59,973 bases of DNA, from IMG/VR virus record IMGVR_UViG_3300021185_001927, positions 1-59,973 of that record; one strand, 5' to 3'. The notes beneath the pieces are model-generated. The model saw nothing but the letters and a program-made list of their open reading frames with translations. It made no database searches and was not told where the DNA came from. Shown here piece by piece: positions 25,816 through 59,973 of the stretch (within the stretch, counting starts at the first letter, position 1; each line of letters starts with the position of its first letter). This stretch comes from a virus. Position numbers and translations under genes: made by a program.

Positions 25816-26448
25816 ATGTTATTAACTAACCCACTAGAAATAGAACTCACAACAAAATGCACACTTGGGTGTCCTGCTTGTCCGCGAAACAATCCCAAAG
25901 AGAAAAAAGAAAATTGGGATGTAGGACACATGAATACAGATATTGCTAAAAGTTTAGCAAACTCTACAGTAGAACGTTCGTATCTTTTTGTAGGATGTTA
26001 TGGTGATCCAATATATCACCCAGACTTTATAGATATAGTAAAGTATTATATAGATAGAAATAAAAGTCTTACAATTCATACCAATGGGAGTTTTAAAAAA
26101 CAATCATGGTGGGATAAACTAGCAAGTCTTAATTGGACATATAAGCAAAACTTTACTTTTAGTGTTGATGGATTAAAAGATACAAATCACATATATAGGA
26201 TTCGTGCAGATTGGGAATCTATTATGCGAGGAATGAAAACAATAGGATCGTTACCATCAGATCGTAAGCCTCGTTTAGAATGGAAAATGTTAGTTTTTCC
26301 ATATAACAAACATCAAGTACCAGAAGCAAGAAAACTAGCACAAGAAATAGGTATTGATACGTTTACACCAGTTAAAAGTGAAAGAGATATCAATCAATAC
26401 AGAGTAGAAAACAATGAAATATATAGGTGGCCAGATGATAAAGCCTAG
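25816..26448 (+). CDS. Radical SAM core, first half of a split gene
   Basis: A 210-residue radical SAM core. Motif CTLGCPAC (about 15-22) followed by PRN, and GCYGDPIYHPDF (about 59-70) in the GDP sub-type, as in the genes at 7861, 52030 and 53089. Those run on to a SPASM part; here the frame stops at 26446-26448 while the SPASM-like part continues in the +1 frame. Either two co-acting polypeptides or a frameshifted single gene. Confidence 0.8.
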   Translation: MLLTNPLEIELTTKCTLGCPACPRNNPKEKKENWDVGHMNTDIAKSLANSTVERSYLFVGCYGDPIYHPDFIDIVKYYIDRNKSLTIHTNGSFKKQSWWDKLASLNWTYKQNFTFSVDGLKDTNHIYRIRADWESIMRGMKTIGSLPSDRKPRLEWKMLVFPYNKHQVPEARKLAQEIGIDTFTPVKSERDINQYRVENNEIYRWPDDKA

Positions 26449-26797
26449 ATGTTTATTATATAATATGCCAATATTTTTATCTGCTGATAATAGATTAAAG
26501 CCGTGTTGTTTTTTAAATCCAGTTGAGCAATGGAACGATTTTATTAATTGGGGCAAACAAAACGGATTAAATGTGGAAGAAGACTTAGACATAACAAAAC
26601 ATGACGTAGAAACAATACTAAAAAGCCCAACATGGTTAGCAGTACTAGATGGATTTAAAACAGGTAATGCTCCACATGAATGTCATGTATCATGTGGTCC
26701 TGATAGTTACTCAAGTACATCACAAACAGCTAAACATAGTGATTATGAAGAAAATCCTGATAGTAGTGGATTATCTTCGGCTTATAGAGAGGAATAA
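26414..26797 (+). CDS. SPASM-like half of split radical SAM gene
   Basis: A 127-residue protein. The stretch LKPCCFLN (about 29-36) and HECHVSCG (about 86-93) match the C-terminal auxiliary-cluster cysteines of the GDP-type radical SAM paralogues. It begins 35 bases before the stop of the first half, with an ATG at 26414 lacking a good ribosome site. It may be translated by coupling, or the two are one disrupted gene. Confidence 0.65.
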   Translation: MKYIGGQMIKPRCLLYNMPIFLSADNRLKPCCFLNPVEQWNDFINWGKQNGLNVEEDLDITKHDVETILKSPTWLAVLDGFKTGNAPHECHVSCGPDSYSSTSQTAKHSDYEENPDSSGLSSAYREE

Positions 26798-29963: not shown

Positions 29964-31061
29964 ATGAAGCAAGGCAATTATATTTTTACAAGCGAAAGTG
30001 TAAGTAAAGGACACCCAGATAAGGTGTCAGATCAAATTAGTGATGCACTAGTTGATGCAGGATTAAAAAACGGCGACGAGACAACTCGTGTAGCAGTTGA
30101 AACACTTGTAACCACTAACCATGTAACGTTAGCGGGTGAGGTAAAGAACTTTAATGTAAGCAAGGACGAAGTCAAACAAATCGTTCGTGACAAAGTTAAA
30201 GAGATTGGATACGAACAGGATGGATTCCATTGGGATAAGTTAAACATCTATAACGAGATTCATTCGCAATCAGGTGATATTGGGTTGGGAACAGATAGTT
30301 TTGGTGCAGGTGATCAAGGTATTATGTTTGGTTACGCATGTACAGATAACGATGCAATGCTACCAGCACCTATTCATTACTCGCATGAAATTTTAAAGTC
30401 GTTAGACAAAGCAAGAGAAAGTGGATACGAATTTCTACTACCAGATGCTAAGTCACAAGTAAGTGTTCAGTACGAAGGTGGAAAGCCAACACGTATTGAT
30501 CAAATTGTTGTATCACATCAACACAAAGACGGATTTCAACATAGCATTAAGGCACCTATAAAAGATGCCGCTAACGAAGTATTAGGAGATTTAATTGATA
30601 AAGAAACTGTATGGCATATTAATCCTACTGGTAATTTTGTTATTGGTGGACCCGATGGAGACACAGGTCTCACAGGCAGAAAGATCATTGTTGATACTTA
30701 TGGTGGTTTTGCTCCCCATGGCGGCGGCGCATTTAGTGGCAAGGATCCTACCAAAGTAGATCGCAGTGCGGCTTATATGGCACGATGGTTAGCAAAGAAT
30801 GTTGTAGCAGATAACATGGCTGACTGGTGTAGTATTCAACTTAGTTATGCTATTGGTGTTAAAGAACCTACTAGTATCTATATAGATTCAAATGGACACA
30901 ATAGAAGTATTCAGCAATTTATCCAAAACAACATTGACTTAACACCAAAAGGAATCATTGACAAGTTTGGGTTATTCAAGTATAATAAGTATAGTGAAAA
31001 TTGTGTTTACGGACACTTTGGCGACAAAGATGTACCGTGGGAAAGTATAGGATGGAAATGA
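29964..31061 (+). CDS. metK: S-adenosylmethionine synthetase
   Basis: A 365-residue, near full-length SAM synthetase. SESVSKGHPDKVSDQISDAL (10-29) starts the ATP site, GAGDQGIMFGYA (about 114-125) is the hexapeptide region and GGGAFSGKDPTKVDRSAAY near 253-271 is the P-loop-like region. It makes SAM from methionine and ATP. A phage copy is rare; this window holds many SAM-using genes. Confidence 0.93.
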   Translation: MKQGNYIFTSESVSKGHPDKVSDQISDALVDAGLKNGDETTRVAVETLVTTNHVTLAGEVKNFNVSKDEVKQIVRDKVKEIGYEQDGFHWDKLNIYNEIHSQSGDIGLGTDSFGAGDQGIMFGYACTDNDAMLPAPIHYSHEILKSLDKARESGYEFLLPDAKSQVSVQYEGGKPTRIDQIVVSHQHKDGFQHSIKAPIKDAANEVLGDLIDKETVWHINPTGNFVIGGPDGDTGLTGRKIIVDTYGGFAPHGGGAFSGKDPTKVDRSAAYMARWLAKNVVADNMADWCSIQLSYAIGVKEPTSIYIDSNGHNRSIQQFIQNNIDLTPKGIIDKFGLFKYNKYSENCVYGHFGDKDVPWESIGWK

Positions 31062-46694: not shown

Positions 46695-46702
46695 AGAATA
46701 AT

Positions 46703-48130
46703 ATGTCAGATAGTAAATTACCAAGCGATACTTTTTGTATACTTCCGTGGATACATTTAAGTACTAGACCAGATGGAAGTATGAGAGTATGTTGTACTGC
46801 TAACGCATCAAGTGTAGGAGCAACAAATGATAAAGCACACGGTGGAAGAGTAGGTATTGTTAAAACAGAAGATGGCAAGCCTGCTAACCTAAACAACAGT
46901 GATCTTAACAGTAGTTGGAATAACAGCTATATGCGAAGTGTTAGACAAATGATGCTTAAAGGCGATAAGCCAGCAAGTTGTTTAAAATGCTACAAAGAAG
47001 AAGATGCAGGACACAGATCAAAGCGTCAATGGGAAACAGACTATTGGATGCGTGATGGTATTGATGTTGACGAACTAGTAGCTCAAACATACGAAGATGG
47101 ATCAACAGATAGTAAACTACGTTATATTGATATTCGTATGGGAACTAAATGTCAATTAGGTTGTGTTATGTGTAGCCCACATGATAGTTCAGGTTGGGTG
47201 AAAGACTGGAACAAGTTATATCCAAATATTACAAATGAATCTCTAAAAGAAACTATGAATTGGGATTCTAAAGGTAAAACGTTTGGTGCTAGTTATAATT
47301 GGCACAAAGACAATCCAGTATTTTGGGATCAGTTTTATGCACAAATTCCATACATTAGACAGTTATACTTTGCAGGCGGCGAAAGTACAGTTATTGAAGA
47401 ACATTATAGTATTTTATCTAAAGTTATTGAAATGGGGTATGCACATCAAATTGAAGTACGTTATAATTCAAACGGAATTGAACTACCAGATAGACTATTA
47501 GAACTATGGACACATTTCCAAAAAGTACGTTTCCATTATAGTATTGACAGTATTGGTGTAATGAATGATTATATTCGTTACCCAAGTGAATGGGACCATC
47601 AACTTAAAATGTTTGAACGTTTAGATAAAGAAACATCTAACAATGTAGAAGTTACAATTGCATGTGCCGTTAACGCTCTTAACATTCATTATATTCCAGA
47701 CTTCCTTAAATGGAAACTTCAGGATAGCGGACTAAAGAAAACAAATATGTGGCCATTTGGTGCAGGCGGTATTAACTATCACTTTGTATACTGGCCAGGA
47801 CATTTGAATGTTAAAGTACTACCAGATGAATTCTTAGATAAGACTGAAGCTAAGTATGAAGAATTTATTGAATGGTGGAAAGAAAATTGGGAACTAGGTG
47901 TTCCAAGTTGGCATAAAGGTAAAGTAACCAAAGAACAATGGCTAGATGCGAGTTATGGAATTAAACGTTTACGTGGTATGATTAGTTTTGCTCGCAGTGA
48001 AGATTGGAGTAGACGCTTACCAGAATTTAGAGAATATATTAATAAACTAGATGAGTTACGTGGAACTGATTTCCGCAATACATTTCCAGAAATGGCATAC
48101 TTACTAGATGAACCGGAGAATGATAAATGA
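46703..48130 (+). CDS. Twitch-type radical SAM protein 1 of accessory array
   Basis: A 475-residue radical SAM enzyme. N-terminal auxiliary cysteines FCILPW and RVCCTA (about 12-31) and CLKC near 94; core motif CQLGCVMC (about 150-157); AGGESTV (about 224-230), GGE with Ser for the Pro. C-terminal ending LRGTDFRNTFPEM as in the paralogue at 9316. Longest of the set. Followed in a 4-base overlap by an MTAN-like gene. Substrate unknown. Confidence 0.85.
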   Translation: MSDSKLPSDTFCILPWIHLSTRPDGSMRVCCTANASSVGATNDKAHGGRVGIVKTEDGKPANLNNSDLNSSWNNSYMRSVRQMMLKGDKPASCLKCYKEEDAGHRSKRQWETDYWMRDGIDVDELVAQTYEDGSTDSKLRYIDIRMGTKCQLGCVMCSPHDSSGWVKDWNKLYPNITNESLKETMNWDSKGKTFGASYNWHKDNPVFWDQFYAQIPYIRQLYFAGGESTVIEEHYSILSKVIEMGYAHQIEVRYNSNGIELPDRLLELWTHFQKVRFHYSIDSIGVMNDYIRYPSEWDHQLKMFERLDKETSNNVEVTIACAVNALNIHYIPDFLKWKLQDSGLKKTNMWPFGAGGINYHFVYWPGHLNVKVLPDEFLDKTEAKYEEFIEWWKENWELGVPSWHKGKVTKEQWLDASYGIKRLRGMISFARSEDWSRRLPEFREYINKLDELRGTDFRNTFPEMAYLLDEPENDK

Positions 48131-48702
48131 AATATTTATTAGTCGCACTTGAAAATGAAGTGCCAAATATCGATTTACCCGATGATTATACACTAATGAT
48201 TACAGGTGTAGGTAAAGTAAATGCTACTGTAATGGCTACTATTGCCGCTAGACAACCAGACTGTGAATGTATTATTAACTACGGAACAGCAGGAACTTTT
48301 AATCCTAAACTAGTTGGTAAACTACACAGAATTGGAATAGTAAAACAACGCGATATGGATGCAAGACCACAAGCACCATTAGGAACTACTCCATACGAAG
48401 ATACAAAATTCAGCAGTGATTTGCAACTTTATAAAGGAAGTAAATTTACATTAAGCACAGGCGATAACTTTGTAAAAGCCAACCCCGAAATGCAAAGTGA
48501 CTTTGTAGACATGGAAGGGTATGCTATTGCAAAAGTGGCAGGTATGTTTAATAAGCCATGTATGATGTTAAAATATGCAAGCGACTTAGCTGACGATAAA
48601 GCACCAGAAGAATGGGAAAAGAATCAAGCCAAAGGCAAAGATATGTTCCTAAAATGGCTAGATGATTTAGAAAAGAATATCCAAGAAATAAACGATGAGT
48701 AA
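48127..48702 (+). CDS. MTAN-like nucleoside hydrolase/phosphorylase
   Basis: A 191-residue protein of the Pnp/Udp nucleoside phosphorylase fold. TGVGKVNATVMA (26-37) is the Gly-rich motif; INYGTAG (50-56) the base-site loop; DMEGYA with E130 and SDLAD with D153 fit MTA/SAH nucleosidase residues that bind ribose and act as general acid. MTAN also cleaves 5'-deoxyadenosine, the by-product of radical SAM catalysis, and it sits between two radical SAM genes. Purine phosphorylase remains possible. Confidence 0.75.
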   Translation: MKYLLVALENEVPNIDLPDDYTLMITGVGKVNATVMATIAARQPDCECIINYGTAGTFNPKLVGKLHRIGIVKQRDMDARPQAPLGTTPYEDTKFSSDLQLYKGSKFTLSTGDNFVKANPEMQSDFVDMEGYAIAKVAGMFNKPCMMLKYASDLADDKAPEEWEKNQAKGKDMFLKWLDDLEKNIQEINDE

Positions 48703-49954
48703 TTCGGGCTTTTGTGCATTACCATTTGTTCAATATAGTACTTACAACGGAGGACGTTTTAGACTTTGTTGTATGGCTAAAGAACCTAAAGAACTAGTCA
48801 ATCAAGAAGAACTAGGAATTGATGGCACTTGGAATCACAATTATATAAAAGACGTAAGACGCAGAATGACTGCTGGTGAGAAATTATCAGAGTGTATTGA
48901 ATGTCATCATTTAGAACGTAACGGAATAATGAGCTCACGCCAATGGGAAAATAAAGTGTGGGCAGACGTAATAGATGATGTAGTAGCAGACGCATCAGCT
49001 AATGATTGGGAGATTGACCAGCCTCTACAATTTGATTTTAGACTTGGTAACTTATGTAATTTGCAGTGTCAAATGTGCAACAAAGAAGCATCTCACTTAG
49101 TGAGTGTGGAAAGAGCCACAATGGTACAAAGCGGACTCGGAGCGAACCATCCTGATTGGGACGGCAATATTGCAAACAAAAAACAAGCATTACTTCAACC
49201 TGGAATAGAGTGGGAGAGCTTTGAAAGAATGTTACCATATGCTCGCAAAATAAAACTAATAGGTGGCGAGCCTACAGTTGCTCAAGACATGTTTAAATTG
49301 TTAGACATTGCAACTGCAAGTGGTCATGCAGAACATATAGAATTAAGTTTTTATACAAACATCACTAACATGCAAGATAAATGGTTAGACCAACTATCTA
49401 AGTTTGAGAAAGTGATTGTTAACTGTTCATTGGAAGGAATGGAAGATATGAATGATTATCTTAGGCCTCCAAGTAAGTGGGCAAGTGTATGGAAGAACTT
49501 TGATAAGTTAGTTAAGTTCTCAGATACAAAAGAAGGTAAACGTATAAAGGTACGAGTTACTACAGTAAACCAAATAACCAATGCATTGCATACTGCTACA
49601 TTTTGGAAGTTTATGCATGATTATCAGATGACTAGTAATAGAGGCATTGGTATGAGTACTAACCAATTAGTAGAGCCAGCATACTATAGTATGGCACATG
49701 CTCCTGAATGGTTGAAAGAAGAACAACGTGAACAGATTTTGGAATTTCTCAAAAGCATTGGCAACAGTCCACATTTTGAGCAATACGAAGAACCTCTTAT
49801 GGAACTTGTTAATTTTAGTTTGGATCCTGAGCATAAGTATGATGCTGACATCATGCGCCAGTATGTCAAGATCACCGAAAACTACGACAGATTCAGAGGA
49901 CACGACATTATTCAAGTGTCGCCCGAATTTAGAAGAATTAAAAGAGACCTCTGA
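48695..49954 (+). CDS. Twitch-type radical SAM protein 2 of accessory array
   Basis: A 419-residue radical SAM enzyme. FCALPF and RLCCMA (about 5-27), CIEC near 67, core CNLQCQMC (about 117-124), IGGEPTV near 189. Ends LDYDRFRG-like (YDRFRGHDI). Overlaps the MTAN-like gene by 8 bases. A frame running past it to 50012 is a shadow. Confidence 0.85.
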   Translation: MSNSGFCALPFVQYSTYNGGRFRLCCMAKEPKELVNQEELGIDGTWNHNYIKDVRRRMTAGEKLSECIECHHLERNGIMSSRQWENKVWADVIDDVVADASANDWEIDQPLQFDFRLGNLCNLQCQMCNKEASHLVSVERATMVQSGLGANHPDWDGNIANKKQALLQPGIEWESFERMLPYARKIKLIGGEPTVAQDMFKLLDIATASGHAEHIELSFYTNITNMQDKWLDQLSKFEKVIVNCSLEGMEDMNDYLRPPSKWASVWKNFDKLVKFSDTKEGKRIKVRVTTVNQITNALHTATFWKFMHDYQMTSNRGIGMSTNQLVEPAYYSMAHAPEWLKEEQREQILEFLKSIGNSPHFEQYEEPLMELVNFSLDPEHKYDADIMRQYVKITENYDRFRGHDIIQVSPEFRRIKRDL

Positions 49955-50008
49955 TTTAACTAAAGCAGAAACCTATCATCGATGGGATTGTAAAGTAACT
50001 GTAGACTT

Positions 50009-50839
50009 TTAAAACTTTTTAATACGTTCTGCCATACATAGCTCAGGCTTGAGCAAACTTTCATTTAATATATCAGCTTCAAAGCATTGTAACTTTGTGC
50101 CAAATACAATTTGGTGAGTAATCCATTGTGCATTAAAGAACCAAATATCACCTGGATCAAAAGTAATATAATGTAATGGGTGGTGAAACTGATCCCATTT
50201 TTCTTCATTCCATACACATCTATCACGCATTCCAGTAATAAATGTATGTATGTTGTTTTTATCTAGTTCACCTAAGTTAAACTTATCTTTGTACATGTTA
50301 TACATTTGTTGTAAGTCTGGACCAAACGATAATACTCTAGGACGCTTTTTATCTAATTGAACAAACATACGTATCTGTTGTTCTAGTCCAGTGTGTTGTT
50401 CATCTAGTTCGTCCAAGTGTAGTTTATTTTCTACTAGTGTATTATATCTATGACTAAGCATACGTTCACTTGTTTTGTAATGTGGGAATAACATATCAAA
50501 TACTTCGTTCCATCCATTGTTAGCTTGTTTGTGTTTTTGATGAAATACATTAATTTGCTCGTCATTCCAACCACGTTCTATATGCATACGTGATCTATTT
50601 TTAATATGACTGTTATACCAAGGCATAATCCATTTGTTATCTTTAATAGTCCAGTCTGGTAAGTCGTCATAGTAATCATAATCTAATTGTGGTATAGTTA
50701 GATTTTTAATAACCACCGGCCAGCCACTTTCAAATGCTTCGTATAGTTTAAAATTGTCTTTTAGGTCGTGTTTATTAGCGTCGAAAACATTGACAATGAA
50801 GTCGTTTCCTGCTATAATATCTTTAGCGATACGGGTCAT
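50009..50839 (-). CDS. Possible Fe(II)/2OG oxygenase-like protein
   Basis: The only gene on the minus strand (276 residues from ATG at 50839, GGAG at 50851-50854; the first in-frame ATG at 50878 has no site). LHLDEL with H141 and D143, and THQIVFG with H242, fit a 2OG oxygenase triad; PRVLSFG between them is typical of the beta-helix. Function unknown. It converges on the gene at 48695 and diverges from the amidinotransferase. Confidence 0.55.
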   Translation of the reverse strand: MTRIAKDIIAGNDFIVNVFDANKHDLKDNFKLYEAFESGWPVVIKNLTIPQLDYDYYDDLPDWTIKDNKWIMPWYNSHIKNRSRMHIERGWNDEQINVFHQKHKQANNGWNEVFDMLFPHYKTSERMLSHRYNTLVENKLHLDELDEQHTGLEQQIRMFVQLDKKRPRVLSFGPDLQQMYNMYKDKFNLGELDKNNIHTFITGMRDRCVWNEEKWDQFHHPLHYITFDPGDIWFFNAQWITHQIVFGTKLQCFEADILNESLLKPELCMAERIKKF

Positions 50840-50867
50840 GTTGTATAAAACTCCATTTGTGTGTATA

Positions 50868-50875
50868 GATAAATA
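50868..50875 (+). promoter_or_regulatory. Late-type box, plus strand
   Basis: GATAAATA reading toward the amidinotransferase gene at 50945; back to back with a minus-strand box. Confidence 0.4.
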
Positions 50876-50881
50876 CATATA

Positions 50882-50889
50882 TATTTATG
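50882..50889 (-). promoter_or_regulatory. Late-type box, minus strand
   Basis: Reads CATAAATA on the minus strand, 43 bases ahead of the oxygenase-like ATG (50839). Forms a near palindrome with the plus-strand box (ATAAATA...TATTTAT). Confidence 0.4.
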
Positions 50890-50944
50890 CAAGTAAAAAT
50901 CCAAGTTCAACGCATATTGAACAAACATCATATGAGAATAAAAA

Positions 50945-52030
50945 ATGACAAAATCAGTTAATGTATGGAGCGAATTTCAGCCCCTAAAAAGAGTAGTGCT
51001 AGGAGCACCGTTTCCACCTGAAACATTTGATTGGCACGAGGACGAAGAAACACGCAATGTAATGCGTCAAATCTTTAAAGAAACAGCCGAGGACATAGCA
51101 GTGCTGGAGGGAATATTAAAGGACAGAGGTATTGAAGTAGTACGTCCTAAAAATATATTTACAATCACAGGTGAAGAACAAATTAAATTACCATGGATGC
51201 ATTGTGGGTTTCCTAACCACCCATTAATGCCACGTGATACACTTATGCCTTATGGCAATAGTATATTTGAATGTTTTACAGGTAGCGATAATCGTTACTT
51301 TGAGAATCTCGCATATTACGATCATTGTAGTAAATGGTTTAGTGAAGGTGCAGATTGGGTTAGTATGCCAGGAGTATTAGTAGAAAGTGGTAAAAAATAT
51401 GACCACTTTGTAGATAATCATCGACTGCTTTATCATGCGGCTAACATGATAAAGTGTGGACGCCACGTTTTGTTTAGCCAACCCTATGAGGGAGACAATA
51501 AACGAGGCAGAGGTACGGAGCTGGGCCGTGAATGGATTCGTAGAGAAATAAAACTACGTTATCCAGATACAAAGTTTTTGGACATTCCAGTAGGAGGACA
51601 TATCGATGGTAAAATAGCATTGCTAAAACCTGGTGTGCTAATGACCTGGAATGCAAATTGGGTTCCTAAAGAAATGGAAGGTTGGCACATTATTGAAGTA
51701 GATGATGATTTTGACATGCCAGAAGATTTCCAACAAACTCGTAAGAAAAGATTCCACAAAGAATATGTAAGCAAGTGGTTAGAGCATTGGGTAGGTTGTC
51801 CAGACGAAAGTGTGTTTGATGTTAACGTACTATCACTAGATGAAAAGACGGTAATTTGTACAGGTAAAAATGAACAAGCATTTGCTGAAATGGAAGCACA
51901 TGGCATTGAACCAATATACTGGAACTTTAGACATCAGTATTTTTGGGATGGTGGCATACATTGTTTAACAAGTGATATTGTTAGAGAAGGTGGGCAGGAA
52001 GATTATATAACTAACAAAAGGTACTATTAA
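50945..52030 (+). CDS. Amidinotransferase (AGAT-like)
   Basis: A 361-residue guanidine-transfer enzyme of the arginine:glycine amidinotransferase family. VWSEFQPLKRVVLGAP (7-22) is the family start, GGHIDG (about 217-222) carries the catalytic His and Asp, and GGIHCLTSD near 335-343 the active Cys. It moves an amidino group from arginine to an amine, or acts as a deiminase. In a phage this is notable. The next gene overlaps its stop by one base. Confidence 0.85.
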   Translation: MTKSVNVWSEFQPLKRVVLGAPFPPETFDWHEDEETRNVMRQIFKETAEDIAVLEGILKDRGIEVVRPKNIFTITGEEQIKLPWMHCGFPNHPLMPRDTLMPYGNSIFECFTGSDNRYFENLAYYDHCSKWFSEGADWVSMPGVLVESGKKYDHFVDNHRLLYHAANMIKCGRHVLFSQPYEGDNKRGRGTELGREWIRREIKLRYPDTKFLDIPVGGHIDGKIALLKPGVLMTWNANWVPKEMEGWHIIEVDDDFDMPEDFQQTRKKRFHKEYVSKWLEHWVGCPDESVFDVNVLSLDEKTVICTGKNEQAFAEMEAHGIEPIYWNFRHQYFWDGGIHCLTSDIVREGGQEDYITNKRYY

Positions 52031-53079
52031 TGAGTTGGTACAAGAACCTACATAAATTACAACTTGACCCAACAAGTCATTGTAATGCAAGATGCGGTGC
52101 TTGTGCTAGAAATATATACGGTGGTGAAACTAGACACGACTTGGAATTAAAACATTTTGACTTAGAGTTATGGAAAAGAATAGCAATCGAAGACACTAAA
52201 GAGTGCTACATAAATCATTTAAGTCTAAATGGAAATTGGGGCGATGCTTTAATGCACCCAGATATAATAGAAATAATTGAAATTTGGAATACATATCATC
52301 CAGAAAGTGAAATGGCAATAGCAACAAATGGAAGCCTACGTAGTACAGAGTTTTGGAAAAAGTTAGCCAACGTACTAAGAAACACTCCTCGACATAGTCT
52401 TGAATTTTCAATGGATGGAATGGAAGATACACATCACATTTATAGAAGAAAAACATCACATTCAAAGTTAGTAGATAATATTAAAACTTTTGTAGATGCA
52501 GGTGGAACTGCAAACATATATATGACTTTATTCGAACACAACAAACACCAAATTAAAGAAGTAGCAAACTTATCTAAAGAATTAGGTGCTGATGGATTTT
52601 ATATAAGGCATAGTCATCGTAGTAAGATGAAAATTATAGACGGTGAAGAACGATACGATATAGAAGGTTATTTTCCAAAAATAATAAAAGGCTCTTTTAC
52701 TTTTCCAAAAAATAAAAAAATAAATAGTGATGCAAGAGATAGTAAAATACACATACAAAATAATGAAAAAATTAAACCAAATACAACAAGTAAATGTCCT
52801 TGGAAACAACAACACAAAGTACAAATTGATCCATGGGGAATAATATGGCCTTGTTGTTATGTAAGTAAGTATGGTGGTGGTGGGTCAATGACAGGTTTTA
52901 ATATGGACGAAATTTTTTCACCAGGCAATGATAATATTATTAATAATGTATTTGAACAAAATGATGTAAACAAGTATACCTTAAAAGAAATATTAGAAAA
53001 TAAATGGTTTAATACAACAGTAGATAATGCAATAGCAAAGTCTGAATGGAATATTTGCAATGAAACTTGCGGAATATAA
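52030..53079 (+). CDS. Radical SAM-SPASM protein 3 of accessory array
   Basis: A 349-residue GDP-type radical SAM enzyme. CNARCGACARN (18-28) is the core; LNGNWGDALMHPD (about 66-78) takes the GGEP site; DPWGIIWPCC near 268-277 and ICNETCGI at the end hold the SPASM-like cysteines. Tandem paralogue of the next gene (same CNARCGAC, GNWGD, DPWG, MEDTHHIYRRKT). SPASM enzymes modify peptides or proteins in known cases. Confidence 0.88.
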   Translation: MSWYKNLHKLQLDPTSHCNARCGACARNIYGGETRHDLELKHFDLELWKRIAIEDTKECYINHLSLNGNWGDALMHPDIIEIIEIWNTYHPESEMAIATNGSLRSTEFWKKLANVLRNTPRHSLEFSMDGMEDTHHIYRRKTSHSKLVDNIKTFVDAGGTANIYMTLFEHNKHQIKEVANLSKELGADGFYIRHSHRSKMKIIDGEERYDIEGYFPKIIKGSFTFPKNKKINSDARDSKIHIQNNEKIKPNTTSKCPWKQQHKVQIDPWGIIWPCCYVSKYGGGGSMTGFNMDEIFSPGNDNIINNVFEQNDVNKYTLKEILENKWFNTTVDNAIAKSEWNICNETCGI

Positions 53080-53088
53080 GGAATAACA

Positions 53089-54189
53089 ATGAATTGGTAT
53101 AGACAGATACATAAATTACAAATAGATATAACAAGTCATTGTAATGCTAGATGTGGTGCTTGTATAAGAAATATAAATGGAGGTGCAACTCATCCAGGTT
53201 TAAAACTAACCCATTTTGATGTAGATGTTTGGAAACGTATGGCTACCGAAGACACTAGAGGTTGGTGGGTTAGGCAGCTAACACTAAATGGAAATTGGGG
53301 CGATCCAATGATGCATCCTCATTTAGTAGAAATGTTAGAAATATGGATTACTGCTCACCCGGAAACTTTTATATCTATTGCAACAAATGGAAGTATGCGT
53401 AGCACTAAGTTTTGGTCAGACCTTGCTACAATATTACGTAAAGGATCTCATCACAAAGTTGATTTTGCAGTAGATGGAATGGAAGACACGCATCATATAT
53501 ACAGACGAAAAACTGTGTTTTCTAAACTAAAAGAAAACATAAAAGCATTTACAGATGCAAAAGGACAAGCAATTGCAGTAATGACAATGTTTGAACATAA
53601 CAAACATCAAATAGAAGAAGTAAAAGAATTGGCAAGAGAAGTAGGTTGCAAACACTTTATTGCAAGAAGAAGTCATAGTGATCATATGCTTATCGAAGAC
53701 GGTGACGAACAATACGAAATAAAAGGTTGGTATCCAACTGGAAATGGCGAGCATGTAATTGATAACGATACTCCGGAACTTGAACAAGACTTTCCCGAAA
53801 ACGAACATCCACTAAGTGTAAATAGAGACAGAATATGGATGAGAGCTAATGAACGTTTTGAAGAATTAAATGATAATCATATACCAAGTAAATGTCCTTG
53901 GAAAGATGAAGGGGAAGTACAAATAGACCCATGGGGTGTTGTATGGCCTTGTTGTCATGTAAGTTTATATGGCGGTGCTGGAGCATCAGAAAATATGTCT
54001 ATAAAATTAAACTTTAATGAAGAAGCTGAACAAACTAATTTTATCGAAGAAGGAAAAGAATCAAACAGTTTGCATAATAGATCGTTAAAAGATATATTAA
54101 ATAATCAATGGTATAATGATACACTTAATCATGCTATAAAAAATGCAGATTATGATGTGTGCAGACGTAGTTGTGGGATATGTAAATAA
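53089..54189 (+). CDS. Radical SAM-SPASM protein 4 of accessory array
   Basis: A 366-residue paralogue of the preceding gene. Core CNARCGACIRN (18-28), LNGNWGDPMMHPH (66-78), DPWGVVWPCC near 281-290 and CRRSCGIC at the end. An acidic insertion (about 235-265) sets it apart. Nine-base gap upstream with AGGAAT site; one-base overlap downstream. Confidence 0.88.
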   Translation: MNWYRQIHKLQIDITSHCNARCGACIRNINGGATHPGLKLTHFDVDVWKRMATEDTRGWWVRQLTLNGNWGDPMMHPHLVEMLEIWITAHPETFISIATNGSMRSTKFWSDLATILRKGSHHKVDFAVDGMEDTHHIYRRKTVFSKLKENIKAFTDAKGQAIAVMTMFEHNKHQIEEVKELAREVGCKHFIARRSHSDHMLIEDGDEQYEIKGWYPTGNGEHVIDNDTPELEQDFPENEHPLSVNRDRIWMRANERFEELNDNHIPSKCPWKDEGEVQIDPWGVVWPCCHVSLYGGAGASENMSIKLNFNEEAEQTNFIEEGKESNSLHNRSLKDILNNQWYNDTLNHAIKNADYDVCRRSCGICK

Positions 54190-55439
54190 TGTACGTTAAT
54201 CCAATGTTAAATGATACACGCTATCCAACGTGCTTGGCACCTTGGAATGCACTCACTATTAAATGGGGCGGTAATGTATTGCCTGACATTATATATAATG
54301 GCAAGTTTGGTAATATTACTAAACAAACATTACCAGAGTTATTGAACAGTGAAGAAGCAATAGCATTAAGAAAATCACATGCAAGTAGAATAGTACCAGA
54401 GGCTTGTTTGGCTTGTACTAAAAAAGAGCAAAGTGGTAAAAGTCGTAGAATGTATTTTTGGGATAAACTAGACGAAGATGTAAAGCGTGGTAGTATTAAA
54501 AACAGTGTAGACAGTAAACCTGATATACGCTACTTAGACTTTACTATCAGTAACAAATGTAACCTAGCGTGTATACATTGTAATCCATTTGTTAGCACAG
54601 GTTGGACTAAAGATGGAAAGAAACTAAACAAAGAGAAGCCTGATTACTGGAAGCAAGCACAAATCGGCTATCATGGAGTTGAAGACATGTCATTCCTTGA
54701 TAACTTGTTTGCTGATCCAGAATACTTTCGTAATTTACAATGGGTAGCATTAAGAGGTGGAGAACCTTTATATGATGAAAGTTGTAAAGCAATATTACAA
54801 TGGTTTATTGATCAAGGATTAGCAAAAAACATTATGCTAGATATTAGTACAAATGCAACTGTATTTGATAACGACTTCCAAGAAATATTTAAACATTTTA
54901 AACATATTGAATTGCTTATTAGTATTGAAGCAGTAGATGAATTATACAGTGTAGTACGTGGTGGATCGTATACATTTGAACAGTTAGAAGAAAACATAGA
55001 AAAGTTTTACACATACAATAATATTGAAGTTGTGTTTGCAGTAACAGTTATGCTAACAAATGTATTTGGATTAGATAAAGTATGGAACTGGTTTAAAGAA
55101 AAACACATGCATAGAGCAAGTATAAGCATGAGCAACGTAGTAGTAAATCCTACATACCTCAATATTGCATACATGCCGGAGGTGTTAAAGTATATTATGT
55201 ATGATAAATTACTACAGATACCAGATCAAAGCATTTGGCCTAAAGGAAGTTATCATGCAGATGAGATACATTATCAAACAGGTATCCATGCTATTAGAGA
55301 TGGATTACAAGTCGAAGTAGATGAAGTAGAACAAGAAAAGCAATGGAAGTGGTTTGTTAAGTATACGAAAGACTTAGACAGATTACGTGGCACAGATACA
55401 TTTGCACTAATAAAGGAATTAAAATTATACAATGAGTAA
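54189..55439 (+). CDS. Radical SAM protein 5, N-terminal Cys pair lost
   Basis: A 416-residue radical SAM enzyme of the twitch-like type. Core CNLACIHCNPF (about 119-129), RGGEPLY near 181; CLAPW and CLAC (about 15 and 73) remain. Where the paralogues have a CC pair (PCC, RVCC, RLCC) this protein reads GGNVLPDIIYN, so that auxiliary-cluster site is missing. Ends LDRLRGTDTFALIKEL, like the others. Overlaps the PLP gene by 8 bases. Confidence 0.85.
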   Translation: MYVNPMLNDTRYPTCLAPWNALTIKWGGNVLPDIIYNGKFGNITKQTLPELLNSEEAIALRKSHASRIVPEACLACTKKEQSGKSRRMYFWDKLDEDVKRGSIKNSVDSKPDIRYLDFTISNKCNLACIHCNPFVSTGWTKDGKKLNKEKPDYWKQAQIGYHGVEDMSFLDNLFADPEYFRNLQWVALRGGEPLYDESCKAILQWFIDQGLAKNIMLDISTNATVFDNDFQEIFKHFKHIELLISIEAVDELYSVVRGGSYTFEQLEENIEKFYTYNNIEVVFAVTVMLTNVFGLDKVWNWFKEKHMHRASISMSNVVVNPTYLNIAYMPEVLKYIMYDKLLQIPDQSIWPKGSYHADEIHYQTGIHAIRDGLQVEVDEVEQEKQWKWFVKYTKDLDRLRGTDTFALIKELKLYNE

Positions 55440-56337
55440 CCCAGATTTTGGAAAGACAGGAAACAGTGTATGGAACCAACCATACATGGATCACCTCAAT
55501 GAAACATTCTTTCCTAACATAGATATATCAACACTGGCAGACGAATCTAACATAATGTTAGACAGATATCAAGGCTGGATTGAAAGCAGTAAACTAAACA
55601 ACTTTACTGGACTAGATGCATTTCCTTATAGGTTTGCAAGTGTAGGTACTACACAAACGCTAGACTGGTGGCACTACTATTGTTCAGTGAACAACCTTAA
55701 CCTCAAAACATTTAGAGGTGAGTATCCATATAACAGAGACGCATTGTTACACACAAATTTAGAATGGGGCGACAGTATTGATGACAAAGGATTAACACAA
55801 GGCGATGCAGTATTAGTAAGTGTACCATTCAGTGGTACTGGTAGAGTTCCAGAGCGTTTTGATGATATGATTAAAATATGTAATCAACTAAACATTCCAG
55901 TGTTGGTTGATTGTGCATGGTTTGGTACTTGCTTTGACATAGATATAAACTTAGACGAGCCTTGTATTAAAATGGTAGCATTTAGTACTACCAAAGGATT
56001 AAGTTGTGGTAATTGGCGTGCGGGTATTACATTCTCACGCATCAACGAAGGTAGCCTAGAAGTGCAAACAGATTGGAATCATGGAAACCATCTCAACACT
56101 GCAATTGCTAATAGGCTTATGGAAAAGTTTTCACCAGATACTATTCCTAAAAAGTATATGGACTCACATGTAGCAATATGCGATCATTATGGATTTGAAA
56201 TGACAAACACCATACACATTGCACTAGCACCTAGACATACAGAATATGATGAGTTTCACAGAGATGGAATATACAACAGAATTAATATTTCAAAAGCATT
56301 AAAGCGTTATAAAAACAAAGGAACCTTTTATGAATAG
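55432..56337 (+). CDS. PLP-dependent aminotransferase-like protein
   Basis: A 301-residue fold-type I PLP protein. VLVDCAWFG (about 162-170) holds the Asp that binds PLP nitrogen, and STTKGLSCG near 184-192 the Lys for the Schiff base. Usual class I/V enzymes have about 380-420 residues, so this is shortened. An amino or keto group on the pathway product could be its target. Sits between two radical SAM genes in overlapping frames. Confidence 0.65.
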   Translation: MSNPDFGKTGNSVWNQPYMDHLNETFFPNIDISTLADESNIMLDRYQGWIESSKLNNFTGLDAFPYRFASVGTTQTLDWWHYYCSVNNLNLKTFRGEYPYNRDALLHTNLEWGDSIDDKGLTQGDAVLVSVPFSGTGRVPERFDDMIKICNQLNIPVLVDCAWFGTCFDIDINLDEPCIKMVAFSTTKGLSCGNWRAGITFSRINEGSLEVQTDWNHGNHLNTAIANRLMEKFSPDTIPKKYMDSHVAICDHYGFEMTNTIHIALAPRHTEYDEFHRDGIYNRINISKALKRYKNKGTFYE

Positions 56338-57472
56338 GCTACCTGCTAACGCATGTGCTTATCCATTTAAAGCAGAAATGCTTATGCATGGACAACCTGC
56401 AACTCCGTGTTGTAGATTCCATACAAGATTTTTGCCAGACGATAAAAGTTTTACTGAAATACGTGAAACTATGATGCGTAATGAATGGCACCCAGGTTGT
56501 TATAAATGTAAGTCAGATGAAGAAGTAAAAGGTAGCAGTATGAGAACTGATGCAGATGAATTCTTTGATGACTTTACAGATACAGTACGTTTAGAGTATT
56601 TAGAAATAACTGTAGGTAGACTTTGCAACTTAGCATGTTTAAGTTGTGGAGCAGAGTTTAGTCATACATGGGACAAGGATGAACTTGCATTGGGTATAAG
56701 TGACGAGGCCAAAATTGAGAAGTTAAAAGAAGTACAAGAATATGATTTAGATAATTTAGATTTAGACAAACTAAAGCATGTTAAGTTTATTAAAGTAACA
56801 GGTGGCGAGCCGTTCTTACATAGACAGTTTTTAAACCTAGTTGTTAGACTAGCAGACAGTGGAATAGCAGAACAGATTGACTTAGAGATATTTACGAACT
56901 GTACATGGTTTCCAAAGAAACTTGAGCTTGATGCATTGTTAAAATTTAAGCGTATACAACTAAGTCCTAGTATTGATGGTGTAGGCACTACAAACGACCT
57001 TCTACGTTACCCTAGTAAGTGGGAAAATATAGAAGCTACACTTGACAAGTGGATAGAAGTAAAAGACGCTACAGGACGCTTAAAAATAGCTACAGCCACC
57101 ACTGTAAGCGTTATTAACGCTCCACAGCTACATGAGTTTATACATTGGGCAAGAGTGCATAAAGGCATAGGAGTAATGCTACAAACAGTATATGAACCTC
57201 ATTATTTAAGTGTAGAGCATTGGGGCAACGCATATAGGAAATTATTAAAATTAACAGTAGACCAACAATACATGGGTTTTAATAAAAATGAAAGTAAATT
57301 TAGTGCTAGTTATAAATTATTAAATAACTTATGTTCAGTAGTAACTAACGCACAACAAGATAAGACAAAAGATTATATTGTGGAATTAAAAAGAATATTA
57401 GCACACAGAGGCCAAGACATAAGCATGGCTCCTAAGTTTGCAAATATATTAAGGCACATGAATTATGATTGA
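56330..57472 (+). CDS. Twitch-type radical SAM protein 6 of accessory array
   Basis: A 380-residue radical SAM enzyme. ACAYPF and TPCCRF (about 7-26), CYKC (about 58-61), core CNLACLSC (about 98-105), TGGEPFL near 157. Overlaps both neighbours by 8 bases. Acidic middle helices (KLKEVQEYDLDNLDLD). Confidence 0.85.
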   Translation: MNRLPANACAYPFKAEMLMHGQPATPCCRFHTRFLPDDKSFTEIRETMMRNEWHPGCYKCKSDEEVKGSSMRTDADEFFDDFTDTVRLEYLEITVGRLCNLACLSCGAEFSHTWDKDELALGISDEAKIEKLKEVQEYDLDNLDLDKLKHVKFIKVTGGEPFLHRQFLNLVVRLADSGIAEQIDLEIFTNCTWFPKKLELDALLKFKRIQLSPSIDGVGTTNDLLRYPSKWENIEATLDKWIEVKDATGRLKIATATTVSVINAPQLHEFIHWARVHKGIGVMLQTVYEPHYLSVEHWGNAYRKLLKLTVDQQYMGFNKNESKFSASYKLLNNLCSVVTNAQQDKTKDYIVELKRILAHRGQDISMAPKFANILRHMNYD

Positions 57473-58703
57473 TAAAGAAAAATTAAAACAAAGTAGCACA
57501 TTTTGTATGTTACCGTTCATGCACATTTACGGAACAGCAGGAGGTGACATAGTGCCGTGCTGTGAAGCACAAGAAGTACCATTGAATGATCCAGGTGAGA
57601 CAGCTCTTGAAAGCTGGAACAATGAAAACTATAAAGAGCTAAGACGAGCTTTGGCCAAGGACGAAAGACCAGAACGCTGTGCAGTGTGCTGGCATAACGA
57701 GGATAGTGGGATAGTAAGCAATCGTCAACAATGGGAACAAGACAACTGGAATGAATTTGCTGATATTATTGAAGTGAATGATGACTACAGTGTAAACAAT
57801 CCACCTATATGGATTGAACTTAAAGTAAGTAATTTTTGTAACTTAAAGTGTATAATGTGTAGCACACATAGTTCTTATAAACGTGTAAAGGACTTAGACA
57901 TTATAACAAAGTACCAAGATAGTGGACACGAAACAAGATTACTTAGACCAACTACTTTGTTTGACTCTTTAAATGAGTGGCCAGAATTATGGGAACATGT
58001 ACACACCTTACAGTTTACAGGTGGTGAGCCTATTATTAATCAAGAACACTATGATTTGTTAGAGTCAATTCCACAACATTTAAAGCATAAAATAAAATTA
58101 CGTTATGCTAGTAATTTAAGTCATATAAAATTTAAAAAGTATGATCTAGTTAAAATTTGGAATGAATTTAAAACTGTTAATATTAAAATAAGTATGGACG
58201 GTGTAGGAGATGTGTATAACTTTATCCGTCAAGATGGTGATTGGGATAATGTATATGCTAACATGATGGTACTTGACAGTGAGCCAACAATAGACGTGGC
58301 AGCTGGTATTACAATTCAAGCTCATAATATATACCATATGCCTGAGTTCTATGCTTTTTGGAAAAACAGTGATGTTAAACTTAGGTTCATTACTGCTAAT
58401 ATTTTACAAACACCAAGATACTTAGCACCAAGTGTATGGCCAGAAGAATACAGAGAAGCCATTATTAATAAACTAAAGGGTGCTTTAGATGAACATCCTG
58501 AAATGCAAAAATTCATTACGTATATGGAAAACAATCAACCTAATATACGTGACTATGCAAAGATGAGAAAGTATAACAGAGATATAGAAGCACGATATCC
58601 AAAAGAAGTAACGTTAGCATCAATGCTTGACAAACACTTAAACATGCAACCAGAGAATATGGAAGCAGTGCATAATAGATTATTGAAAGCAGAAAATAAA
58701 TGA
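57465..58703 (+). CDS. Twitch-type radical SAM protein 7 of accessory array
   Basis: A 412-residue radical SAM enzyme. FCMLPF and VPCCEA (about 12-30), CAVC (about 67-70), core CNLKCIMC (about 124-131), TGGEPII near 185. QQWEQDNWNEF stretch shared with the copies at 46703 and 48695. Ends the array, with an ATGA overlap to a small gene. Confidence 0.86.
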   Translation: MIDKEKLKQSSTFCMLPFMHIYGTAGGDIVPCCEAQEVPLNDPGETALESWNNENYKELRRALAKDERPERCAVCWHNEDSGIVSNRQQWEQDNWNEFADIIEVNDDYSVNNPPIWIELKVSNFCNLKCIMCSTHSSYKRVKDLDIITKYQDSGHETRLLRPTTLFDSLNEWPELWEHVHTLQFTGGEPIINQEHYDLLESIPQHLKHKIKLRYASNLSHIKFKKYDLVKIWNEFKTVNIKISMDGVGDVYNFIRQDGDWDNVYANMMVLDSEPTIDVAAGITIQAHNIYHMPEFYAFWKNSDVKLRFITANILQTPRYLAPSVWPEEYREAIINKLKGALDEHPEMQKFITYMENNQPNIRDYAKMRKYNRDIEARYPKEVTLASMLDKHLNMQPENMEAVHNRLLKAENK

Positions 58704-58876: not shown

Positions 58877-59161
58877 ATGATTAAAGTTTTCTTTATAGCA
58901 AAAATGAAATCACCAATGCCAAGTGAGTATTTACAGATGAGTAAAAAGATGAGAGAACTAGCAGAAGCTCATCCTGGCTTTATAGATATTACTAGTGAAG
59001 AACATGGTGACATTGAGATTACTATTAGTAGTTGGCGTAGTAAAGAAGATGTAATGGATTGGGCCAATAACCCAGAACATATGAAAGCAAAACAAAGATC
59101 AAAGGAATGGTACGAATGGGTACGAGGAATACATGTAGAGGCAGTAGATGAAAAAAGGTGA
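58877..59161 (+). CDS. Antibiotic biosynthesis monooxygenase-like (ABM) protein
   Basis: A 94-residue ferredoxin-like protein. AHPGFIDITSEEHGDIEITISSWRSKEDVMDWANNPEH is the ABM pattern (Gly-Phe-hydrophobic, SSW, W, HMKAK). ABM proteins are cofactor-free oxygenases, haem-binding or dimeric sensors. It follows the radical SAM array and overlaps the last gene by 14 bases. Confidence 0.72.
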   Translation: MIKVFFIAKMKSPMPSEYLQMSKKMRELAEAHPGFIDITSEEHGDIEITISSWRSKEDVMDWANNPEHMKAKQRSKEWYEWVRGIHVEAVDEKR

Positions 59162-59973
59162 AAAAGATTGGGATTATCAATTCGTAAGTGATTGCGAAAT
59201 TGTAAATGTTTTTATACCAAAGAACACACATCTTAGTGGCTATGAAGAATTAAAACAAAAACTACAAATGCTACAACAAGTAGAATGTGATAATCACTTG
59301 ACATCAAGTATAGTTAACTTGTATAATACTAGTAGCATTAGTTGGATAGAACATGTTAGAAAAATGGGACACAAGTATGTTGCATTTTGGTTTGATGGAT
59401 GTTGGCCTAAAACAGATGGAATTGAAAAGAAAATATTAACTTATATAAATCGCTTAGAAAAAAATGATTGGATTACAGCAGTACATCCAAAGTATGTGGA
59501 TAGTTTAATGTTATTAAACATAGATGAATTCATAGCCTGGCCTGCCAAAGCACCAAACTTTGGAAGGTATGACTTTTGGGCTGAAAATTGGCTAGGAGAT
59601 TCAACAGTAGAATTAAGTAAAACTATAGAAAGAAACATTGTAGTGGGTGCTCCAAGAACAGATCCAGTTAACTTTTTAAATGGATTAATGAACAAAAAGT
59701 ATACTGATCATACGATAGCAAGAGGGGCCAGAGTTATTATTAAACGTAAGAATATACCCAGTAGTCCTATCTATTTTGTTAATACAGAGCCCAGTAGTCC
59801 TACAGTAGCAGACCCTATAAAAAACAGTATATTTGAGCAATATGTGGGTGCTACAGCCGGGTTTAAACTGCTATATTACGCTTATACGTACGGTTTAGAT
59901 ATAGACAGTACAAAGTTCGTATGGTACGATTTCGACGCTTACAGCGTTAAATTTAAGCGTCTAATGGTGGAAA
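59148..59973 (+). CDS. Partial gene cut by window end
   Basis: Open frame from ATG 59148 to the last base (275 codons, no stop). The protein alternates strands and helices (SWIEHVRKMGHKYVAFWFDGCW; NDWITAVHPKYVDSLMLL; FVWYDFDAYSVKFKRLMVE). The layout resembles the unassigned second half of the protein at 19297, but only loosely. Function unknown. The gene continues beyond the window. Confidence 0.65.
   Translation, partial: MKKGEKDWDYQFVSDCEIVNVFIPKNTHLSGYEELKQKLQMLQQVECDNHLTSSIVNLYNTSSISWIEHVRKMGHKYVAFWFDGCWPKTDGIEKKILTYINRLEKNDWITAVHPKYVDSLMLLNIDEFIAWPAKAPNFGRYDFWAENWLGDSTVELSKTIERNIVVGAPRTDPVNFLNGLMNKKYTDHTIARGARVIIKRKNIPSSPIYFVNTEPSSPTVADPIKNSIFEQYVGATAGFKLLYYAYTYGLDIDSTKFVWYDFDAYSVKFKRLMVE

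Follow-up and report, generated by a model that had tools for sequence, protein, structure and literature searches.

A radical SAM-rich gene module of large environmental phages and some Bdellovibrionota very probably builds one heavily modified product, perhaps sugar-based

What would a phage make with a dense array of radical SAM genes? In the window, which is the whole 59,973-nucleotide stretch analysed here (IMG/VR virus record IMGVR_UViG_3300021185_001927), the original prediction placed seven such genes of two sub-types in a 12-kb block (46703–58703). All seven open reading frames were intact and began at the predicted starts, encoding proteins of 475 aa (46703), 419 aa (48695), 349 aa (52030), 366 aa (53089), 416 aa (54189), 380 aa (56330) and 412 aa (57465). 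The CxxxCxxC motif was present in 7 of 7 proteins, and the glycine motif of the core was GGEP in four of the seven, GGES in the 46703 product and GDA/GDP in the 52030/53089 products. The ten junctions between array genes were, in order, −4, −8, 54, 66, −1, 9, −1, −8, −8 and −8 bases, and a 2-oxoglutarate (2OG) oxygenase-type gene on the minus strand at 50009 split the array into two forward runs. For gene pairs with measurable dS, dN/dS was 0.037–0.275, so the module genes are under purifying selection. Of 141 twitch proteins with a length of 340 aa or more, 140 also kept CxxxCxxC, and on these grounds the block is more than a chance assembly.

Both predicted sub-types were present. Five of the enzymes (all features are on the plus strand unless stated otherwise) were N-twitch radical SAM proteins that scored 214–418 bits against NF033640, above its cut-off of 170 bits: twA (46703..48130, 417.8 bits, alignment A10), twB (48695..49954, 293.4 bits), twC (54189..55439, 252.5 bits), twD (56330..57472, 214 bits) and twE (57465..58703, 314.1 bits). 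Seven radical SAM genes proved an undercount for the record, in which NF033640 matched at 10 places (6 over the cut-off), those outside the array being at 7873, 9334 and 25822; among them was a further N-twitch gene, twF (9316..10464, 214.9 bits). A near-identical longer contig had 19 such places, 13 over the cut-off, and one relative had 25, 18 over. In an alignment of 22 twitch sequences, C14, C72, C75 and CxxxCxxC were invariant and C32 was kept in at least 90%; twC had no cysteine between C15 and C73. The N-terminal twitch part matched BtrN in a solved-structure profile search (profile positions 5–74, E = 6e-8). The array radical SAM proteins additionally gave weak matches to the peptide maturases PapB and SkfB and to mycofactocin, the equivalogs scoring far below cut-off.

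The other sub-type comprised two enzymes with C-terminal SPASM-like matches, each scoring 34.3 bits against NF033640, under the 170-bit cut-off. spA (52030..53079) carried a C-terminal SPASM-like Cys cluster, with 43.7 bits to PF04055 and 16.2 bits to the SPASM family PF13186, below its gathering score of 21.5; spB (53089..54189; PF04055 39.0 bits) exceeded that score with 21.9 bits. Outside the array, spC (7861..8955) was radical SAM/SPASM-like and a neighbour of twA/rsamY in Bdellovibrionota, where its best copy was 38–44% identical in most loci and 30% in one (L193). A split radical SAM enzyme, spD (25816..26797), consisted of a core and a Cys-rich partner encoded as overlapping genes. A split gene resembling spD was seen in a Bdellovibrionia locus (L088), beside which rpoD, dnaG and YqeY were assigned by eye. 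A QueE-like gene at 29018, possibly a further radical SAM gene, matched its families far under cut-off and had no plain CxxxCxxC.

The four predicted neighbours within the array were confirmed. The 48127..48702 product passed the superfamily cut-off of PF01048 (52.6 bits, cut-off 25.1), matched MTAN chains in the PDB (E = 3e-9) and had the VDMEG and ASDLAD motifs; since it scored 66.4 bits against the NCBIfam MTA/SAH nucleosidase equivalog (cut-off 169) and 97.8 against the generic nucleosidase model (cut-off 129), we name it only MTAN-like. The gene amd (50945..52030) encodes a putative L-arginine:amine amidinotransferase of the StrB/AGAT/SxtG type. Its profile (A3) matched StrB best among solved structures (1bwd, E = 7.6e-58), followed by HsvA (5.7e-55) and SxtG (8.4e-55), and it scored 13.5 bits against Pfam ADI, under the cut-off of 22.8. 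Residues H219, D221 and C340, which we take to be the catalytic positions of the family, were invariant in 10 of 10 aligned proteins. From its sequence, amd thus appears to be a StrB/AGAT amidinotransferase that keeps the catalytic His and Cys, and amidino transfer from arginine is predicted. The shortened protein plp (55432..56337) is a probable fold-type I PLP enzyme of the aminotransferase class I/II fold. Its AlphaFold2 (AF2) model (pLDDT 89) matched aminotransferases, HisC and a CobD-type decarboxylase in Foldseek, with TM-scores of 0.48–0.63 by query length, and K188 and D160, the putative Schiff-base Lys and pyridine-binding Asp, were invariant in 13 of 13 sequences; its score against PF00155 was 18.1 bits, under the cut-off of 19.7. 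The Fe(II)/2OG-oxygenase-like protein (50009..50878, minus strand) had an HxD...H triad (HxD at 154 and 156, H255) that all 6 of the aligned relatives shared without change; it had no Pfam, NCBIfam or PHROG match, and a match to KdoO was weak (E = 0.44). S-adenosylmethionine synthetase (MetK) was encoded at 29964..31061 (TIGR01034 429.9 bits, cut-off 309.4).

Further module genes lay beside the array and elsewhere in the window. Downstream were an ABM/DUF3291-like small protein (58877..59161, PF11695 33.2 bits) and the first part of a module protein that is 428 aa long and belongs to no known family (59148..59973), cut by the window end. The latter was whole in another virus contig (L011:18204-19490) and had relatives in Bdellovibrionia (L102); the rsamY gene lies just beyond the window end. 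The gt4095 product (4095..4799, family A6), conserved in the module, carries a DxD motif, and its relatives adjoin twA/rsamY in bacteria. It had no significant PDB match and none among the 50,697 phage records of the INPHARED isolate-phage set. In hhalign, the gt4095, 59148, 2OG and u4786 families gave a negative result against 11 proteins (CP220, cyanophage and bacterial GT2-type), so the assignment of gt4095 as a candidate glycosyltransferase is a motif-level guess. The u4786 product (4786..5733) was weakly assigned as class I SAM methyltransferase-like (AF2 pLDDT 75; Foldseek methyltransferases at TM-scores by query length of about 0.4). Profiles of u4786, gt4095 and the 59148 family gave nothing significant against solved structures, and PHROGs searches returned little. 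The module family A7 was divergent, with 13–43% identity to its first row and no PDB match. A QueD-like gene in this record and a sulfotransferase-like gene were assigned by eye, and FolE in the record scored under the NCBIfam cut-offs. The 12663 protein, first read by eye as DpdA/TGT, had no family or PDB support for that reading in any library and was therefore not used as evidence.

The module has a core of twA, rsamY, spC, gt4095 and u4786, joined in many cases by plp and amd, and this core is common to large environmental phages and some Bdellovibrionota. Well over a hundred further virus sequences had the key enzymes in blocks like this one, with gene order largely kept and single genes gained or lost between contigs. 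twA was the most conserved member, at 64–92% identity in the phage relatives examined. Nitroreductase-like, 2OG-type, PLP and Asp/Asn beta-hydroxylase-type proteins recurred in module loci, and a QueC-like PP-loop protein was common to phage and bacterial loci. Megablast of the array found no near neighbour among the searched records; twA had no match among the 50,697 phage records or 72,556 plasmids, and rsamY had one weak partial match.

The original prediction had treated the array as a phage pathway. A phage-only reading was rejected, because bacterial loci of the Bdellovibrionota, a phylum known for predators, carry the set, with twA (62–63% identical) and rsamY (54–64%) close together. 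Across 290 genomes from the phylum of one Bdellovibrionia assembly (G013), twA was found in 15 (E ≤ 1e-120) and rsamY in 17 (E ≤ 1e-60), and 15 of 15 twA genomes carried rsamY (p = 3e-23, kinship ignored). Likewise, rsamY was present in 12 of the 13 genomes with plp (E ≤ 1e-20; p = 1e-16, kinship ignored). Both counts carry the caveat that four genomes first found via plp had supplied the bacterial seed rows of alignments A10 and A11. An unrooted rsamY tree (0 outgroup rows kept) had a single phage/bacteria split. Conserved order, clustering and bacterial co-occurrence support the predicted joint pathway. Single, independent occurrence of the genes had been named as evidence against it. The key members did not occur in this way: among loci of 18 kb or longer, 54/54 with rsamY and 44/44 with twA held further genes that matched the twitch profile best; other twitch subfamilies in part did, with a single twitch gene in 21 of 74 bacterial loci examined and one twitch match each in KVP40-type Vibrio phages.

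The original prediction had left the product open, and the evidence here tilts towards a glycan or aminosugar without settling it. Glycos_transf_2 was the commonest family near bacterial loci, in 14 of 145 scanned proteins against about 1.2 expected (about twelvefold, p = 3e-11), an enrichment tested after GT2 neighbours had been noticed and with its two sides on different E-value scales. Representatives of virus neighbours included cytidylyltransferase (2), FkbM methyltransferase (2), carbamoyltransferase (1) and phosphomannomutase (1). One cyanophage has an amidinotransferase from the amd family beside genes annotated KdsA, KdsB, GT24 and 2OG oxygenase, and the CP220 amidinotransferase was near two annotated nucleotide-sugar transferases. 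StrB and BtrN, the best PDB match of amd and a PDB match of the twitch part, both act on aminocyclitols. The twitch domain is, however, C-terminal in BtrN and N-terminal here; in contrast to streptomycin and butirosin, no inositol pathway genes were identified, and plp is not DegT-like.

The key enzymes very probably build one heavily modified product, perhaps sugar-based. We tentatively favour, at somewhat less than an even chance, the reading that the block belongs to a single transferable pathway that makes and tailors a guanidino-bearing, oxidised glycan or aminosugar-like conjugate. The twitch radical SAM enzymes would take a sugar-like precursor and oxidise, epimerise or rearrange its carbons by BtrN-like chemistry, the PLP protein would install or free an amine, and the StrB-like amidinotransferase would move the amidino group of L-arginine to it. 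Hydroxylation might fall to the 2OG oxygenases, and the finishing and attachment of the product to proteins resembling methyl-, sulfo- and glycosyltransferases. In this phage MetK would provide SAM, and the MTAN-like enzyme would remove 5'-deoxyadenosine or SAM by-products of the radical SAM reactions. The product may serve as a virion coat or change the host surface. The enzyme families, invariant residues, selection, gene order, co-occurrence and bacterial glycosyltransferase enrichment were observed, whereas every reaction and the sequence of steps, like the product and what it is for, are our inference. Several observations run against this explanation: gt4095 is a glycosyltransferase by motif only; plp resembles amino-acid-type aminotransferases rather than the sugar-typical DegT family; and glycosyltransferases do not dominate the neighbours in viruses (at most 1 of 114 representatives matched Glycos_transf_2, which was absent from the 25 families shown). 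MTAN and MetK are only accessory, since neither had a match in G009, searched in full, and among the 17 rsamY genomes amd was seen in G013 only (5–20 kb stretches read, two in some). The twitch genes that stand single in bacteria also count against it.

Other products were weighed. It is rather unlikely that the product is a non-glycan diffusible small molecule, whether a signal, a cofactor or an antimetabolite, for which an amino acid would undergo amidinotransfer, radical chemistry and hydroxylation, with a QueC-like ATP-dependent ligase also taking part. This reading would draw on the QueC-like protein of both phage and bacterial loci and the recurrent nitroreductase-like, 2OG-type and PLP proteins, and AGAT-type enzymes produce guanidino amino acids; glycosyltransferases were nevertheless the neighbours seen most often in the bacteria, and the 25 families shown for that neighbourhood included no transporter. 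We consider it unlikely that the module matures a peptide or protein, whether RiPP-like or of the virion, with radical SAM enzymes adding links or epimers and 2OG oxygenases hydroxylating residues. SPASM and twitch enzymes often act on peptides, the array enzymes share a radical SAM core and auxiliary-cluster cysteines with RiPP maturases, and the weak PapB, SkfB and mycofactocin matches, the recurrent Asp/Asn beta-hydroxylase-type proteins and the divergent A7 protein as a possible substrate point the same way. However, a hunt for small-ORF precursors found no family common to the bacterial genomes, with gaps in or beside the array of at most 173 bp (a hypervariable or distant precursor would escape), and Pfam and NCBIfam recognised neither a peptidase nor an exporter in the array of the window. 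A pure RiPP reading was thus rejected, in line with the original view that this is not a textbook RiPP cluster.

Hypermodification of a DNA base, such as a decorated 7-deazaguanine in the phage genome, seems quite improbable. The FolE, QueE-like and QueD-like genes of the record, the QueC-like proteins of module loci and a KVP40 radical SAM gene one gene from a QueC-like gene would fit it; against it, the bacterial core loci mapped had no queD, queE or dpdA homolog at E = 1e-7, and the supposed TGT/DpdA-like 12663 protein matched no family or PDB entry. That independent auxiliary genes were simply collected in a variable region, with no joint pathway, is highly improbable: genes do come and go between virus contigs, and other twitch genes are single in bacteria, but the order is conserved, the rsamY tree has one phage/bacteria split, and the near-perfect twA/rsamY co-occurrence counts led us to reject this reading.

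Such arrays are not wholly unreported, as had been supposed. In the published excerpts available, Campylobacter phages CP220 and CPt10 carry five radical SAM genes and a glycine amidinotransferase as one swappable module, with 11–12 radical SAM genes per genome (PMC2853527). The CP220 amidinotransferase matched the A3 profile (E = 7e-52). Of the six radical SAM genes in 29 kb of CP220, by contrast, three matched twitch/rsamY weakly (E = 3e-13, 6e-12 and 3e-7) and three had no such match at E = 1e-3; profiles of twA, plp, gt4095 and u4786 had no match in this 29 kb. Large ocean phages likewise have multiple radical SAM genes, in pelagimyophages as cassettes within a glycosyltransferase-rich host-recognition region (PMC7029224) and in T4-like ocean viruses (PMC5332604), but the available excerpts of these accounts mention neither a conserved core nor an amidinotransferase, nor any counterpart in bacteria. 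Judged by title or abstract start, the literature matches listed held no Bdellovibrio radical SAM/amidinotransferase cluster. As far as these excerpts go, earlier papers describe radical SAM-rich phage clusters, one with an amidinotransferase, and no mechanism; the present variant is new and has a defined core and bacterial counterparts.

Radical SAM enzymes are often linked to low oxygen (PMC2853527, in the part available), and despite this link, virus records hold up to 18 N-twitch enzymes each in addition to other radical SAM types. It is possible, if doubtful, that a new biosynthetic system moves between phages and Bdellovibrionota, with up to about 18 N-twitch enzymes plus other radical SAM types making a coat or surface modification that is glycan-like and guanidinylated, belongs to a new chemical class and serves viruses and bacteria alike. 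The core and its Bdellovibrionota copies make an old curiosity of phage genomes testable in bacteria and, if the proposal is true, would offer a new biosynthetic chemistry carried by phages, along with many uncharacterised N-twitch enzymes whose genetic context is known.

All seven radical SAM genes that the original prediction placed at 46703–58703 were intact, and the array proved larger than stated. Both predicted sub-types were recovered: five genes (twA at 46703, twB at 48695, twC at 54189, twD at 56330 and twE at 57465) encoded N-twitch enzymes over the NF033640 cut-off, and the radical SAM proteins encoded at 52030 and 53089 carried SPASM-like cysteines towards the C-terminus. The predicted tight packing stood, with array genes overlapping or nearly touching, apart from the 2OG-type gene (50009), which lay on the minus strand. 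The window spans an entire IMG/VR virus record (59,973 bases) classed as linear, a class that often denotes a fragment. NF033640 matched at ten places in it, six of them above the cut-off. Since the GC content was equal in the array (34.9%) and the record (35.1%), composition did not point to recent import. In twA (46703–48130), the best conserved of the twitch enzymes, the radical SAM core read GGES, not GGEP, with Ser, Ala or Pro at this position among relatives; the second twitch cysteine was followed by an invariant TANASS-x-GATNDK stretch.

A longer virus record, IMGVR_UViG_3300021087_000857 (G001, 110 kb), matched the window at 98.9% over 5–10270 and 99.98% over 40945–59973, the two stretches compared. 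Its clamp-loader protein was closest to PA5oct-type jumbo phages (51.5%). Beyond the window end it encoded additional twitch enzymes, a protein resembling Asp/Asn beta-hydroxylases (PF05118), a Cys-rich mini-protein and two other radical SAM products: a short core and the enzyme rsamY (L069:11779–12948). All 12 related virus records searched contained NF033640 matches (7 to 25 per record; 19 in G001, 25 in the related record G003). Because matches below the cut-off, representing other radical SAM types, occurred in all 14 control genomes, only those over it were counted as N-twitch, giving 13 in G001 and 18 in G003.

The viral scan yielded 24 loci with the amidinotransferase (window 50945) as query and 13 with the PLP protein (55432), several contigs being near-copies. 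Twitch genes lay within the flanks of 21 of the 24 (exceptions L022, L023 and L034, the record of L034 holding nine NF033640 matches overall) and in 13/13 PLP loci. The order twA, MTAN-like nucleosidase, twB, an amidinotransferase paralog in some, 2OG-type gene, amidinotransferase, SPASM-like gene, twC, PLP gene, twD, twE and the 59148 family recurred with gains and losses. Six loci (L026–L029, L031 and L033; amidinotransferase 46% identical) united homologs of the window arrays at 4–10 kb and 46–58 kb in a single cluster, linking the smaller array to the pathway. Pairwise dN/dS was 0.037–0.275 for comparisons with measurable dS; saturation affected one from L017 and five from L020. Of the 141 twitch proteins with 340 aa or more, 140 retained the core motif. 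In L015:4281–6633, divergent amidinotransferase paralogs (23–25% identity), two in tandem, lay near the main copy.

IMG/VR tblastn (E 1e-3) found relatives of rsamY in at least 535 stretches and of twA in at least 584, orthologs and others mixed. For each gene the top 80 were retained (69–100% and 64–98% identity, respectively), of which 54 rsamY and 44 twA loci reached 18 kb. Neither gene occurred singly there: further genes with the twitch profile as best match were present in 54/54 and 44/44 of these loci. The 44 twA loci also carried the DxD-motif protein gt4095 (25), amidinotransferase (22), the methyltransferase-like u4786 (20), MTAN (20), PLP protein (17) and rsamY (6); the rsamY loci carried twA (29), PLP protein (21), amidinotransferase (2) and gt4095 (2). 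INPHARED phages contained no twA or gt4095 matches. The protein at window 45923–46627, sulfotransferase-like by eye only and without a Pfam or PHROG match, had family members in 29 of the best 80 twA loci.

Bacterial counterparts were also detected. A genome scan with the twitch alignment retained 74 loci, approximately 50 of Bdellovibrio, Bacteriovorax or Oligoflexia type by record title; many were not the module, and 21 had a single twitch gene. Judged by gene content, L086, L100 and L110 resemble phage contigs that were binned with bacteria. In two genomes of Bdellovibrionia (L087, L088), twitch, amidinotransferase (45%), PLP protein (39%), twitch, spD (41%) and twitch genes lay together, and L102, overlapping L088 on the same 917-kb contig, added a homolog of the 2OG gene (32%) as well as more twitch genes. 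In the window, the radical SAM enzyme spD (25816–26797) is encoded by two overlapping genes, the first for the core and the second for a Cys-rich partner; a similar split enzyme occurred in L088 at 8783–9892. The G001 short core (L069:8246–8962) and mini-protein (10132–10458) had neighbouring counterparts in L102.

Among 290 genomes of the phylum of the L088 genome, the PLP protein occurred in 13 (E ≤ 1e-20), twA in 15 (E ≤ 1e-120) and rsamY in 17 (E ≤ 1e-60). All 15 twA genomes encoded rsamY (hypergeometric p 3e-23, ignoring relatedness), as did 12 of the 13 PLP genomes (p 1e-16, likewise); 10 of those 13 had twA. The exceptions were G243 (PLP protein alone) and G115 and G239 (rsamY without twA); the bacterial seed rows (four twA, three rsamY) derived from genomes that a search with the PLP protein had initially identified. 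In many, not all, bacterial genomes, twA, rsamY, the module gene spC, gt4095 and u4786 were close together. In the rsamY tree, for which no outgroup was usable, the 40 sampled viral and 16 bacterial proteins were separated by a single branch (100/99).

The amidinotransferase profile matched StrB, HsvA, SxtG and AGAT (E 4e-46 to 8e-58), with invariant His and Cys. The N-terminal part of the twitch enzymes matched the BtrN twitch (E 6e-8), and their core also matched SkfB, sulfatase-maturase, viperin and cytosylglucuronate decarboxylase chains. The PLP protein had a confident predicted model with a class I/II aminotransferase-like fold and invariant Lys and Asp, and the 2OG-type protein kept HxD...H in 6/6. 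A QueC-like PP-loop family was common to phage and bacterial loci. The window record encoded MetK; neither MetK nor MTAN was found in the fully fetched G009, so the supply of SAM and the clearance of by-products are auxiliary and lie outside the core.

Three further window proteins were noted. By eye, 21366–24056 (896 aa) resembles a subtilisin-type protease that is secreted and ends in an autotransporter-like C-terminus, which would be odd in a phage. The secreted-looking 537–3428 (963 aa) had Cys-bearing repeats, a long Glu/Ser/Thr-rich tail and no PHROG match. The 12663–14156 protein (497 aa; relatives 88% in G003, 39% in G009) matched nothing in Pfam, NCBIfam or PHROG and nothing significantly in the PDB; it contains a GDSGGFQ stretch like that of tRNA-guanine transglycosylases.

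Glycos_transf_2 was found in 14 of 145 bacterial neighbour proteins (17 loci), any unrelated family reaching at most four. With 255 such genes in 57.3 Mb (17 genomes), the 261 kb surveyed would be expected to hold 1.16 (p 3e-11); these neighbours were noticed before the enrichment test, and the two counts came from tools with different E-value bases. One bacterial neighbour protein (L192:4137–5642) had a CxxxCxxC near its N-terminus, then a family-2 glycosyltransferase domain, and no Radical_SAM Pfam match. Among 114 viral neighbour representatives, Radical_SAM (4) headed the Pfam families, followed by 2OG oxygenases (3 and 2), alongside cytidylyltransferase (2), FkbM methyltransferase (2), carbamoyltransferase (1) and phosphomannomutase (1); Glycos_transf_2 occurred at most once.

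The accessible parts of earlier reports describe 11–12 radical SAM proteins in the Campylobacter phages CP220 and CPt10, where sets of five together with a glycine amidinotransferase form exchangeable clusters, and offer only a possible fitness role (PMC2853527); 12 radical SAM genes in the genome of a T4-like ocean virus (PMC5332604); pelagimyophage radical SAM cassettes, situated within a glycosyltransferase-rich region (PMC7029224); and brief mentions of radical SAM genes (PMC3322345, PMC9301287). We found no published account of a core common to phages and Bdellovibrionota in the open-access literature, judged mostly from listings.

A glycan or aminosugar product is tentatively favoured, because of the bacterial Glycos_transf_2 enrichment, the sugar genes beside related amidinotransferases (cyanophage, CP220) and the pelagimyophage report. 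It is not proven, since gt4095 has no independent support, the PLP protein falls outside the type common for sugars, and viral Glycos_transf_2 is scarce. The predicted joint pathway is strongly supported, and the array genes very probably act together in it. Their combination points to a route in which a sugar-like or amine-bearing precursor would be oxidised or rearranged, an amine formed and then guanidinylated, and the product hydroxylated and attached.
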